64,000 nt of DNA, taken from the NCBI RefSeq assembly GCF_000275865.1, contig NZ_CM001555.1, positions 827,706 through 891,705 on the forward strand, in the 5' to 3' direction. Source of the stretch: Methanofollis liminatans DSM 4140 (lineage in GTDB: Archaea; Halobacteriota; Methanomicrobia; Methanomicrobiales; Methanofollaceae). This document shows positions 6,994 to 33,841 of the stretch, one piece after another. Position 1 is the first letter of the stretch. Each line of letters opens with the position of its first letter. Below the pieces are notes generated by a model. The model did no database searches. It was not told the origin of the DNA and worked only from the letters and a program-made list of their open reading frames with translations. Both the position numbers and the translations under genes were made by a program.

Positions 6994-8463
6994 ATGATGT
7001 ATGCGGAAAAACTCGCTGTCCCGACGGCTCTCACCTTCGACGACGTTCTGCTCGTTCCCGCCGCTTCGTATGTGGAGCCGAACGATGCCGATGTGCACTC
7101 GATCTTCTCAAAGAACATCCCGCTGAATATCCCGCTCGTCTCGTCGGCGATGGATACCGTGACCGAGGCGGGAATGGCGATCGCCATCGCCCGTCTCGGC
7201 GGCATCGGCGTCATTCACCGGAACATGCGGCCGGAGCGTTCGGTGGACGAGGTAATCAGGGTGAAGCGCGCCGAAGACCTGATCGAGCGCGAGGTGCTCT
7301 CGGTCGGCCCCGAGACCACTCTCTCCGAGGTTGAGGAGTTGATGAACAAGCACGGTATCGGCGGCGTCCCGGTGATCGAGGATAAAAAACTCATCGGGAT
7401 CGTTTCTCGCCGTGACATCAGGGCGATCGTGCACCGGCGCGGGAAAGAGTCGATCCGCACGATCATGACCCAGTCTCCGATCACGGCCCAGGAGGACGTC
7501 ACCGCGGAGGCGGCGCTTGAGACGATGTACGCAAACAAGGTCGAGCGCCTGCCGGTCACGAACGGCGACGGCCGTCTGCTCGGGATCATCACGATGCAGG
7601 ACATCCTGGAGAAGCGCTCGTACCCCCTCGCCAATCGCGATGCAAAGGGCAGCCTCCGCGTCGCCGCCGCCGTTGGCCCCTTCGACTTTGAACGGGCGAC
7701 GATGCTCGACGAGGCGGGCGTCGACGCCCTGGTGGTGGACTGCGCCCACGGCCACAATATGCATGTGGTCAAGGCCGTGCGCGAGATCAAGGGGAGCGTG
7801 AAAGCCGACGTGGTCGCCGGCAACATCGCCACCTCAGAAGCGGCGATGGAACTTGCCGACACCGTCGACGGGCTCAAGGTCGGGATCGGGCCGGGATCGA
7901 TCTGCACCACCCGGATCGTCGCCGGCGTCGGCGTTCCGCAGGTCTCGGCGATCGCGAGTGTCGCCGACGTCGCCGCCCCGCTCGGGCTCCCGGTGATCGC
8001 CGACGGCGGTGTCCGTTACTCGGGCGATATCGCAAAGGCGATCGCCGCCGGTGCCAACGCGGTGATGATGGGCAGCCTCTTTGCCGGGACCGACGAGGCG
8101 CCCGGGCGGATCATCGCGATCCAGGGGCGCAAGTACAAGCAGTACCGCGGCATGGGCTCGCTTGGCGTGATGAGCCATGGCGAGTCCTCAGACCGCTACT
8201 TCCAGAAGAAGGGGATCGGGAGGACGAAGTATGTCCCTGAAGGCGTTGAAGGGGCAATTCCCTACGTCGGGAATGTCTCCGACGTGATCTACCAGCTGGT
8301 GGGCGGGCTGAAGTCGGCGATGGGCTACACCGGCTCGGCCACGATCGACGACCTGCGCACGAAGGGCAGGTTCGTGCGGATCACCGCGGCCGGTATGGGC
8401 GAGTCGCACCCGCACAATATCCTGATCACCGACGAGGCCCCGAACTACCGGCTGACCGGGTGA
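6994..8463 (+). CDS. guaB: Inosine-5'-monophosphate dehydrogenase
   Basis: Oxidises IMP to XMP, the committed step of GMP synthesis. The protein is about 489 residues with the N-terminal barrel strand [10 protein letters not shown], two CBS domains at about 95-205 ([18 protein letters not shown] and [11 protein letters not shown]), the catalytic-cysteine loop [17 protein letters not shown], and [10 protein letters not shown]. Tandem ATGs at 6994 and 6997 follow GGTGATC, a strong archaeal ribosome binding site overlapping the mfnB stop; 6997 has the better spacing. A longer frame from 6940 lies inside mfnB and is not used. Confidence 0.97.
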
Positions 8464-8471
8464 TCCTCTTC

Positions 8472-8505
8472 TTTTTTATAGTGGTGTCACTAACATAAAG
8501 TAAAG
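8472..8505 (+). promoter_or_regulatory. HSR1-type heat-shock promoter/operator of hsr1-hsp20
   Basis: A TATA box (TTTTTTATA, 8472-8480) is followed by TGGTGTCACTAAC (8482-8494) and CTAACATAAAGTAAA (8490-8504), abutting the ATG at 8506. The first half-site is exactly CTAAC of the Archaeoglobus HSR1 palindrome CTAAC-N5-GTTAG; the second is GTAAA. The box overlaps the predicted start of a leaderless transcript, so binding would block initiation. The same 13-bp TGGTGTCACTAAC and N5-GTAAA arrangement precedes cdc48 at 31363-31385. Confidence 0.75.
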
Positions 8506-9138
8506 ATGTTTGATGATGGAGAGACCTCCCGTCTCCTTGATATTCTCGGCAACCGGAACCGGAGGCGTATCATCGATCTTCTCAGGCAGAAGCCCTGCTT
8601 TGTCACCGAGATCTCGGACAAGCTGATGGTCTCGCCCAAGGCCGTGATCGAACATCTCCAGATGATGGAGGAGGAGCAGATCCTCTCCTCGTTCCATGAC
8701 AACCGCCGGCGGAAATACTACAGCCTTACGCGCGAGATCTGCATCGATATCCGCTATGGCGGGGAGGACACGGCTCAGGCTGTTTTGCCGGGCGGATCGC
8801 GTGAGGAGAAGTATCTCGCCGCCCTGTCGATGCTTGCCCGGATGCTCCGCACGCGCGATACCCTGATCGCCAACCTTGAGGAGATCGAGCGCGATATCGA
8901 TGCACGGATGGACGAGGTCGTCAGGTACAGCCAGGACCTGCTCTCCAGCGAGACCGAGATGGACCTTGTGCTGGCGCTCGCCCACTGCACGCTCTCCCTC
9001 CGCGACCTTGAGGATTACACCGGCCTTGAGGCCGGGCCCGTGGAGCAGATGCTTCAGGACCTGATGGTAAAAGGTATCGTCGAACAGAACGGAAACCAGT
9101 ACATGCTGCGTGGTCCCTATGCCGAACAACCCCTATGA
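8506..9138 (+). CDS. HSR1-like winged-helix heat-shock regulator
   Basis: This is a 210-residue DNA-binding protein. Residues 5-75 form an ArsR-type winged helix (ETSRLLDILGNRNRRRIIDL, then VTEISDKLMVSPKAVIEHL and a basic wing NRRRKYYSL). The remainder is a helical, Glu-rich region that may dimerise. In Archaeoglobus fulgidus the regulator HSR1 is encoded with Hsp20 and Cdc48 and binds CTAAC-N5-GTTAG. Here the gene is followed directly by hsp20 (20-bp overlap), and its promoter carries a CTAAC-N5-GTAAA box, which supports assignment as HSR1 and predicts autorepression. The name is inferred from context and motif rather than a database match. Confidence 0.8.
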   Translation: MFDDGETSRLLDILGNRNRRRIIDLLRQKPCFVTEISDKLMVSPKAVIEHLQMMEEEQILSSFHDNRRRKYYSLTREICIDIRYGGEDTAQAVLPGGSREEKYLAALSMLARMLRTRDTLIANLEEIERDIDARMDEVVRYSQDLLSSETEMDLVLALAHCTLSLRDLEDYTGLEAGPVEQMLQDLMVKGIVEQNGNQYMLRGPYAEQPL

Positions 9139-9529
9139 CGAGATATTCAGGAGCATCGCGAAGATCCTTGAAGACGTCCTCGGCGAGAACGGGGAGCCGC
9201 CCAGGATCATCGGGTGCACGATCATCGCCTCAGGCGGTTCTCCTGGCCGCGCCCCCGGACAGGACGATGCCGGCCCGGATTTCTCGTACGAACTGACCGA
9301 GAGCGAACGGTGCGTCTATATCACGGCCCGGGTGCCGCCGGCCTGCGAGGGGCGGGCGTCGGTGGCCTTCGGGCCTCAGGCTGTCACCGTTACGATGGGC
9401 GAGCGTCAGGTGACGATCGATCTCGACGACGAGATCGATCCCGGGCAGAGTTCGGTCTCGGTGAACCATGGCGTGCTCGATGTCGTGTGCGTGAAACTAC
9501 CGCGAGAGGGGCCTGTCTCCTCTCTCTGA
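9119..9529 (+). CDS. Hsp20/alpha-crystallin family small heat-shock protein
   Basis: This protein of about 136 residues has a variable N-terminal region (residues 1-55) and a C-terminal beta-sandwich of alpha-crystallin type (DFSYELTESERCVYITARVP through SVSVNHGVLDVVCVKLP). It would hold unfolding proteins during heat stress. The usual A-x-x-x-n-G-v-L motif appears as VNHGVLDV. The ATG at 9119 lies within the 3' end of the regulator gene, so translation is coupled; a GTG at 9110 is less likely. A hairpin terminator overlaps its stop. Confidence 0.85.
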   Translation: MPNNPYDEIFRSIAKILEDVLGENGEPPRIIGCTIIASGGSPGRAPGQDDAGPDFSYELTESERCVYITARVPPACEGRASVAFGPQAVTVTMGERQVTIDLDDEIDPGQSSVSVNHGVLDVVCVKLPREGPVSSL

Positions 9530-9544
9530 GGAGACATCTTTTTT
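9515..9544 (+). terminator. Hairpin plus T-run terminator after hsp20
   Basis: GTCTCCTC (9515-9522) pairs perfectly with GAGGAGAC (9528-9535) around a 5-nt loop and is followed by six T residues (9539-9544). It separates hsp20 from the convergent epimerase gene. The stop codon lies inside the hairpin. Confidence 0.75.
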
Positions 9545-9592
9545 GCAGGCTTGCACCGCTCCTTCTTCCGTGAAAAAAAGTGCTGTTCCTGC

Positions 9593-31352: not shown

Positions 31353-31400
31353 TTTTATATATTGGTGTCACTAACTTTGAGTAAATCCCATTCACTGGAG
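31353..31400 (+). promoter_or_regulatory. HSR1-type heat-shock promoter/operator of cdc48
   Basis: TTTTATATA (31353-31361) is followed by TGGTGTCACTAAC (31363-31375) and CTAACTTTGAGTAAA (31371-31385). Thirteen bases and the GTAAA half-site are identical to the hsr1-hsp20 promoter at 8482-8504. A Shine-Dalgarno GGAG lies at 31397-31400, 8 nt before the ATG. Confidence 0.75.
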
Positions 31401-31408
31401 ATATACTC

Positions 31409-33841
31409 ATGCAGAAAGATCAGATTGAAGTAACGGTGAAGGAGGCCTATCACGAGGATGCCGGTCGGGGGATCGCACGCCTCGGCATGGACGTGATGAA
31501 GGCCCTCAACCTCGTTTCCGGCGATGTGATCGAGATCCAGGGCAAGCAGAAGGCCGCGGCCATCGTCTGGCCCGGCTATCCCGAGGACATCGGGAAAGGC
31601 ATCATCAGGATCGACGGCAACATCCGCGGCAACGCTCATACCGGCATCGACGATACCGTCAAAATCCGGAAGGTGGAGGCAGGTTACGGCCAGAAGGTCG
31701 TCTTCCAGCCGACCCAGCCGATCCGTCTCGTCGGCGGCGAACAGTACCTCAAACGGCTGATGAACGGCAGGCCGGTCGTCGAGGGGCAGACCTTCAGGAT
31801 CAATGTCCTGGGCAACCCCCTGACCTTCGTCGTCGCCAAGGTCTCGCCCCGGGGGATCGCGATCATCAACGACTCGACCGAGATCGAGCTGAAGGAGACG
31901 CCGTACAAGCCTGAGGAAGGGAAGCGCAAGGAGGTCTCCGACGTCCACTACGAGGACATCGGCGGCCTCGGCCGCGAGCTCGACATGGTCAGGGAGATGA
32001 TCGAACTCCCGCTCAGGCACCCCGAGATCTTCGAGCGCCTCGGGATCGAGCCCCCGAAGGGCGTGCTCCTCTACGGCCCGCCAGGCACGGGCAAGACCCT
32101 GATCGCGAAGGCTGTCGCAAACGAGGTGGATGCCAACTTCATCTCCATCTCGGGCCCCGAGATCATGGGCAAGTACTATGGCGAGTCAGAGGAGCGGCTG
32201 CGCGAGGTCTTTGAAAAAGCGCAGGAGAACGCCCCGACGATCGTCTTCATCGACGAGATCGACTCGATCGCCCCCAAGCGCGAGGAGACGAAGGGCGAGG
32301 TGGAGCGGCGGGTCGTCGCCCAGCTCCTCTCCTTGATGGACGGGCTCAAGACCAGGGGACAGGTCGTCGTCATCGCGGCGACGAACATCCCCGACGCCAT
32401 CGACCCGGCCCTGCGCCGGGGCGGGCGGTTCGACCGCGAGATCGAGATCGGCATCCCCGACCGGAAGGGGCGGCACGAGATCTTCCAGGTGCACACCCGC
32501 GGCGTTCCCCTTGCGGAGAGCGTCGACCTCCAGCATCTCGCCGACGTGACCCACGGCTTCGTCGGCGCCGACATCTCACTCCTGGTAAAGGAGGCGGCGA
32601 TGCACGCCCTCCGGCAGGTGATCCCGAAGATCAAGATCGAGGAGGAGATCCCGGCCGAACTGATCGAGAAACTGCGGGTCACGGCCGAGGACTTCGACGA
32701 GGCCAGAAAGCATGTCGAGCCCTCGGCGATGCGCGAGGTGCTCGTCGAGGTGCCGAACGTCTCCTGGGAGGACGTCGGCGGGCTTGAAGACGTGAAGGCC
32801 GAACTCACCGAGGCGGTGGAATGGCCGCTGAAGTACCCTGAGATCTTTGCCCGGATGCAGACCAAACCCCCGAAGGGGATCCTCCTCTTCGGCCCGCCCG
32901 GAACAGGAAAGACCCTGCTCGCCAAAGCGACGGCGAACGAGAGCGAGTGCAACTTCATCTCGGTAAAGGGGCCTGAGCTCCTCTCGAAGTGGGTCGGCGA
33001 ATCTGAAAAGGGCGTGCGCGAGATCTTCCGCAAGGCGCGGCAGGCGTCCCCGTCGATCATCTTCTTCGATGAGATCGATGCCCTCGTGCCAAAGCGCGGC
33101 TCGTATGCCGACTCCTCGCACGTGACCGAGAGCGTCGTCTCCCAGCTCCTCACTGAGCTCGACGGGCTGGAGGAGCTCAAAAGCGTCATGGTCCTCGGCG
33201 CCACAAACCGCCCTGACATGCTCGACGACGCCCTCCTGCGCCCGGGCCGCCTCGACCGGATCGTCTATGTCCCCCCGCCCGACCTGGAGAGCCGGAAGAA
33301 GATCTTCGAGGTCTACCTGAAGGGCACCGAGGAGATGATGGCATCTGACGTCGACATCGACGATCTCGTCGCCCGGAGCGACGGCTACGTCGGCGCCGAC
33401 ATCGAAGCGGTCGTCAGGGAGGCGAAACTCGCGGCGATGCGGGAGTTCATCGCGGCGATGAAGGACAAGACTGCCGAGGAGCGCACCGATGCCATCGGCA
33501 ACGTCAGGGTCACGAAGAAGCACTTCGACACCGCCTTTGGAAAGGTGAAGGGCTCGCTCTCGCCTGAGAGCCTCGAAGAGTTCGAGCGGCTCTCCTGGGA
33601 GATCCTCTACTCCCACGAACAGCGTTCGGTCCTCGAAAAGGCCGCCGCCCTTGTTAAACGGGCCGGACTTGCGGCAGGGAAAGGCGGCGATGAGGTCGCA
33701 ACCCTCGCAGGGGACCTCAGGAAGGCGGTCTACGCGAGAACAAAAGATCTCGCCGGGATCAGGGCCCTCTCAGAAAAACTTGAAGTCGCGCTCGAGAAGA
33801 AGAGGCCTGCAACCATTCCCGCGCCCATGCACGGGAGCTGA
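31409..33841 (+). CDS. cdc48: CDC48/p97 family AAA+ ATPase
   Basis: This 810-residue archaeal unfoldase feeds substrates to the proteasome. The N-terminal double-psi barrel and Cdc48_2 domains occupy about 1-185. D1 has Walker A GPPGTGKT at 223-230 and Walker [16 protein letters not shown]2 has Walker A GPPGTGKT at 495-502 and Walker [15 protein letters not shown], with arginine-finger regions [12 protein letters not shown] and [11 protein letters not shown]. There is no C-terminal HbYX tail. Its promoter carries the same box as the hsr1-hsp20 operon 23 kb away, implying heat-shock control. Confidence 0.97.

Follow-up and report, generated by a model that had tools for sequence, protein, structure and literature searches.

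We propose that an orthologue of the archaeal heat-shock regulator HSR1 binds a short box between the TATA box and the start of its own gene, and that it represses its own leaderless operon together with cdc48 and hsp20. We give this reading a probability of roughly 0.83. Judged from sequence, the system is of the HSR1 type but has a variant second half-site, and its genes occupy three loci rather than a single operon. The analysis adds a regulon with separately boxed loci, the conservation of the box throughout the order and the phylum, and the proposed splitting of one operon into three. The features are collected in Table 1, where the window is the whole stretch of 64,000 nucleotides of Methanofollis liminatans DSM 4140 that was analysed.

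Table 1. Promoter elements, operators and genes of the proposed regulon. Positions are those of the window, except for the hsp20 operator, which is given in genome coordinates.
Feature	Position	Strand	Basis and remarks
TATA box of the regulator operon (TTTTTTATA)	8472-8480	+	Sequence
HSR1-type operator CTAAC-ATAAA-GTAAA (CTAACATAAAGTAAA)	8490-8504	+	Sequence, order-wide conservation; predicted to overlap the transcription start region
HSR1 orthologue and proposed repressor, 210 aa, with an ArsR-type winged helix, then a long helix and another winged helix	8506-9138	+	Pfam, structure match, model
CS-domain/Hsp20-like protein, 135 aa; overlaps the 3' end of the regulator gene, same operon	9122-9529	+	Pfam CS, E 9.5e-5
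Terminator-like hairpin and T-run, end of the operon	9514-9546	+	9-pair stem, then TCTTTTTTGC; consensus match only
TATA box of cdc48	31354-31361	+	Sequence; 9-base gap to the box, as at 8490
Second HSR1-type operator, CTAAC-TTTGA-GTAAA, cdc48 promoter	31371-31385	+	Sequence, conservation
cdc48, 810 aa; predicted second regulon member	31409-33841	+	NCBIfam TIGR01243 CDC48, 1054.8 bits, above cut-off
Third operator, inverted, hsp20 promoter	G000:C1:1801299-1801313	minus	34 bases before the ATG

The regulator promoter lies 3' of guaB, whose stop codon is at 8463. Its TATA box is followed by nine bases, the box, a single G (8505) and the ATG, which is exactly the layout described in a first-pass annotation of this DNA. 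The ATG starts 26 bases past the last base of the TATA octamer. In archaeal promoters such a distance should put the transcription start at or just before the ATG, and the transcript is accordingly predicted to be leaderless. The pattern CTAAC-N5-GTAAA has two sites in the window, at 8490 and 31371, where 0.03 are expected by chance, and the 13-mer TGGTGTCACTAAC (8482-8494) has exactly two copies in the genome, at the regulator and cdc48 promoters. A 23-mer that includes TGGTGTC also has two copies in the window, at these same boxes (0.01 expected). The annotation had counted TGGTGTC as part of the element. It is common to the regulator and cdc48 promoters here, but even G011, the nearest relative, does not share it: the equivalents there read TATTGACACTAAC (regulator) and TGGTATCACTAAC (cdc48). 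This leaves (A)CTAAC-N5-GTAA as the conserved element.

The genome, a single contig of 2,475,100 bases, was searched by pattern. It holds five sites for CTAAC-N5-GTWA, three of which read CTAAC-N5-GTAAA, and all three are promoters, namely those of the regulator operon, cdc48 and hsp20. The motif is thus not found freely in unrelated promoters, an occurrence that had been named as a sign against the HSR1 idea. The cdc48 box lies 23 kb from that of the regulator, with identical TATA spacing and an identical TGGTGTC flank, and the cdc48 product carries CDC48_N, CDC48_2 and two AAA domains. The hsp20 gene with the box is the genome's sole PF00011 HSP20 gene. We looked for the box at the Cdc48 paralogue and saw none, and the two thermosome promoters of the same genome have no box either. 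The thermosome genes are classical heat-shock genes, and this observation counts against reading the box as a heat switch.

These additional sites also bear on whether the box has to be a regulator site at all. At the regulator gene it fills the space between the TATA box and the ATG and ends one base before the latter, a position that would suit a core-promoter or leaderless-start feature such as an initiator context. We find this extremely improbable, as the cdc48 and hsp20 boxes are just as conserved, and there the ATG comes roughly 15-55 bases later and often has a possible ribosome-binding site ahead of it. Furthermore, the box is a dyad, unlike an initiator, it can be inverted at hsp20, and it is rare in the genome and absent from the thermosome promoters.

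Further sites turned up in the genome that look unrelated or unconvincing as operators. These are 1031471 (upstream of mer, reading GTTAA), 234711 (an ATAAC/GTTAT pair), 2379098/2379119 (tandem CTAACAT and CTCAC repeats), 2252977 (inside a reading frame), 2474555 and 1988177. The tandem CTAACAT/CTCAC repeats (G000:C1:2379098-2379133) stand just 5' of a small membrane-protein gene and resemble the operator of another regulator. At G000:C1:234711-234743 there are two adjoining palindromes of the ATAAC-N5-GTTAT type, upstream of a flavodoxin/ferredoxin-like gene.

The box is real and deeply conserved, and not a product of chance. Among the genomes of the order, the 80 bases before the start hold a perfect CTWAC-N5-GTWA in 69 of 81 regulator orthologues (0.15 expected in shuffles), 25 of 27 cdc48 genes (0.12 in shuffles) and 16 of 29 hsp20 genes (0.05 in shuffles). 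As these genomes are related, their promoters cannot be counted as independent cases, and a stronger argument than the raw counts is that the box recurs in six families and at three unlinked genes. Nearly all of the remaining promoters differ by one mismatch, and the stretch from 200 to 280 bases before cdc48, taken as a control, contains no box with 0 or 1 mismatches. The nine defining columns of the box carry about 1.3-2.0 bits, and the bases between the TATA box and the box mostly stay near 0.1-0.5. Conservation extends to the T/A positions that precede the box by 10-17 bases, with about 0.5-1.6 bits per column in 79 regulator promoters of the order. The gap from the end of the TATA octamer to the box is nine bases in 52 of the 73 scored regulator promoters; for cdc48 it is mostly 9-10 bases and for hsp20 mostly 9-11.

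The second half-site varies. It reads GTAAA or GTAAG in 11 of 11 promoters of the window's genus, and the symmetric GTTAG is kept in some members of the sister families f3-f6, in agreement with the earlier suggestion that GTAAA is a variant of this lineage. The perfect form ACTAAC-N5-GTTAG occurs at 19 distinct places in 61 genomes of the order. Eight of them are promoters of the regulator, eight are promoters of hsp20, one belongs to an HtrA-like protease, and two lie elsewhere. The protease case is confined to one relative (G013:C3:51124-51139), where a perfect box lies about 75 bases upstream of a gene for an HtrA/DegP-like protein with Trypsin_2 and PDZ domains, a possible further member of the regulon.

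The regulator itself matches Pfam HTH_5 (E 7.1e-11), and among proteins of known structure Pyrococcus Phr matches its sequence best (PDB 2p4w, E 2.8e-14). In a structural model with a mean pLDDT of 75.5, a helix at 99-145 lies between the two winged helices. The best Foldseek match of this model is PF0095 of Pyrococcus furiosus (PDB 2quf/2qlz, E 8.6e-7), a winged-helix protein of similar length with no known link to the box, although with low TM-scores (0.37) and a model of only moderate confidence. The regulator profile, A1, has a single match in the window's own genome, and matches to the regulator are present in 142 of 150 genomes of the order. The gene had been described as the first of a regulator-Hsp20 operon. 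The partner gene overlaps the end of the regulator gene and belongs to the same operon, but its product is a CS-domain protein that matched no Hsp20 Pfam model and is not a PF00011 Hsp20. This protein belongs to the Hsp20/p23-like kind, and 'Hsp20-like' is the safer name. Of 30 loci tested in the order, 29 have its gene directly 3' of the regulator gene, and the proteins of the relatives are 31-90% identical to it.

A 2022 review lists just two identified heat-shock regulators of archaea, Phr and HSR1, and notes how little is known about the action of HSR1 (PMC9133787). Those passages of the review that cite Rohlin 2005 state that HSR1 of A. fulgidus binds CTAAC-N5-GTTAG upstream of its own gene, with repression proposed to be relieved by heat (PMC9133787). 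HSR1 is assigned to arCOG01684, a member of the reconstructed ancestral archaeal gene set (PMC5852551). Our literature search found no description of an HSR1-type box in methanogens.

Archaeoglobaceae genomes allow a direct comparison. In this family the perfect CTAAC-N5-GTTAG stands before 12 of 13 regulator orthologues and at 14 of 17 named loci (e.g. Archaeoglobus sp. JdFR-27), just behind a TTTATATA-like TATA box, and the genes follow one box in the order regulator, cdc48, hsp20. A contig of 2,178,400 bases, which we take to be the chromosome of A. fulgidus DSM 4304, reads CTAACATAAAGTTAG before regulator-cdc48-hsp20, where the window reads CTAACATAAAGTAAA; the two bases that differ are both in the second half-site. 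Profile A1 has one strong match in the same genome (E 1.4e-22, the next being 5.4e-5) and the DNA-binding helix is conserved, with SPKAVIEHL in the window and APKAVLEHL there. The first-pass annotation had named an Archaeoglobus HSR1 that lies with hsp20 and cdc48, and these loci agree with that.

The two systems share an orthologous regulator, the first half-site, the spacing, the inner bases ATAAA and the location relative to the TATA box: in the promoter of the regulator gene, CTAAC, a 5-base spacer and GTWA stand just 3' of it. The target genes are also alike, i.e. the regulator's own operon, cdc48 and hsp20, here as predicted from the boxes. One difference is that the second half-site is GTAAA at all three sites of this genome instead of GTTAG. 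Two of its five bases thus depart from the published palindrome, which counts against the HSR1 reading. Another is that the genes are spread over three separately boxed loci, where Archaeoglobaceae have a single regulator-cdc48-hsp20 operon. Since GTTAG is kept at the orthologous promoter in some members of sister families, we class the box of this genome as a variant. The link to cdc48 and hsp20 is made by the shared operator, the genes not being adjacent to the regulator. In addition, the operon partner here is a CS-domain protein, and the box here ends one base before the ATG.

Conservation of the box does not by itself name the protein that binds it. Our prediction that the regulator does so rests on sequence, and the operator could belong to the same proteostasis regulon yet be bound by another transcription factor, with the winged-helix protein a passenger or co-regulator. 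The distribution of both across the phylum is relevant here. A match to the regulator was found in 213 of 247 genomes, and the box is perfect also in families f7, f12, f16, f19, f25 and f28, and near-perfect in f21. In genomes that are presumably Methanosarcina-like (f8) the orthologue adjoins cdc48 and no box was seen, and in several families that we take to be haloarchaea-like the box is degenerate or absent. The regulator and the box are therefore not inseparable, and the lineages with an orthologue and no box speak for another binding factor. G009, an 88%-complete genome, has boxes at cdc48 and hsp20 with no HSR1 orthologue found, for which incompleteness may be the explanation. We nevertheless consider a different factor unlikely: the box is on the regulator's own promoter in nearly all genomes of the order and in Archaeoglobaceae, the classic pattern of autoregulation, and binding of the motif by HSR1 in A. 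fulgidus is reported in the passages of PMC9133787 noted above.

The Methanosarcina-like loci L261-L264 and L266 partly share their upstream sequence, around TTAATAT and CATAAATTTA, and this may be a replaced operator. The haloarchaea-like loci L273 and L286 carry CTAAC-N5-GTGAA directly before the ATG of the orthologue, possibly a degenerate or changed form of the box. The idea that the recognition helix changed along with loss of the box found no support, as G151 has a perfect box and the helix PKAIISHL, the same as in the box-less Methanosarcina-like genomes.

If the HSR1 orthologue does bind the box, then the box on its own promoter suggests autoregulation. We favour repression because the box sits between the TATA box and the start, where a bound protein would hinder the polymerase, as for Phr. 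This distant relative of the regulator, second in the Foldseek ranking, represses hsp20 and itself from a site over the start, and acts by blocking polymerase recruitment (PMC9133787). Its own site consists of TTTA, TGGTAA and AAAA (PMC9133787) and is not present here, TGGTAA being absent from 8470-8510, and the window regulator reaches 67.6 bits with the NCBIfam Phr model, for which the cut-off is 320. Alternatively, the regulator might act from the box as an activator, or in a dual role, and induction would then require it: the family has been described in terms of induction of hsp20 and CDC48, and heat raises HSR1 itself (PMC5852551). A protein bound between the TATA box and the start would block the polymerase, and with the example of Phr this makes activation highly unlikely in our view.

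Under the repressor reading, a winged-helix dimer would bind the half-sites CTAAC and GTAAA (TTTAC on the other strand), starting 9 bases past the TATA octamer. In the unstressed cell this dimer would cover the start region and bar RNA polymerase from a promoter marked by TBP and TFB. Heat or protein-folding stress would cause the regulator to leave the DNA, and its own leaderless operon, which encodes the regulator and the CS/Hsp20-like chaperone, would be switched on jointly with cdc48 and hsp20. We name heat as the signal because of A. fulgidus and the nature of the target genes, and by the same analogy heat induction may be expected in this organism.

We hypothesize that HSR1 and its operator are an ancestral proteostasis switch of the phylum (the Halobacteriota-type archaea). 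The regulator-cdc48-hsp20 operon probably broke up in this order of methanogens, with the operator kept or copied at every fragment. Half-site changes (GTTAG to GTAAA or GTAAG, and CTAAC to CTTAC) would then tune individual promoters, and the HtrA-like protease would have been recruited in at least one lineage. This history would be a clear case of an operator outliving the break-up of its operon. The analysis yields HSR1-type operators from across the phylum, natural variants of the half-sites among them, and gives methanogens a small, predicted core regulon of three promoters that is devoted to protein repair. The control of the heat-shock response in methanogens can now be tested with one protein and three short DNA fragments.
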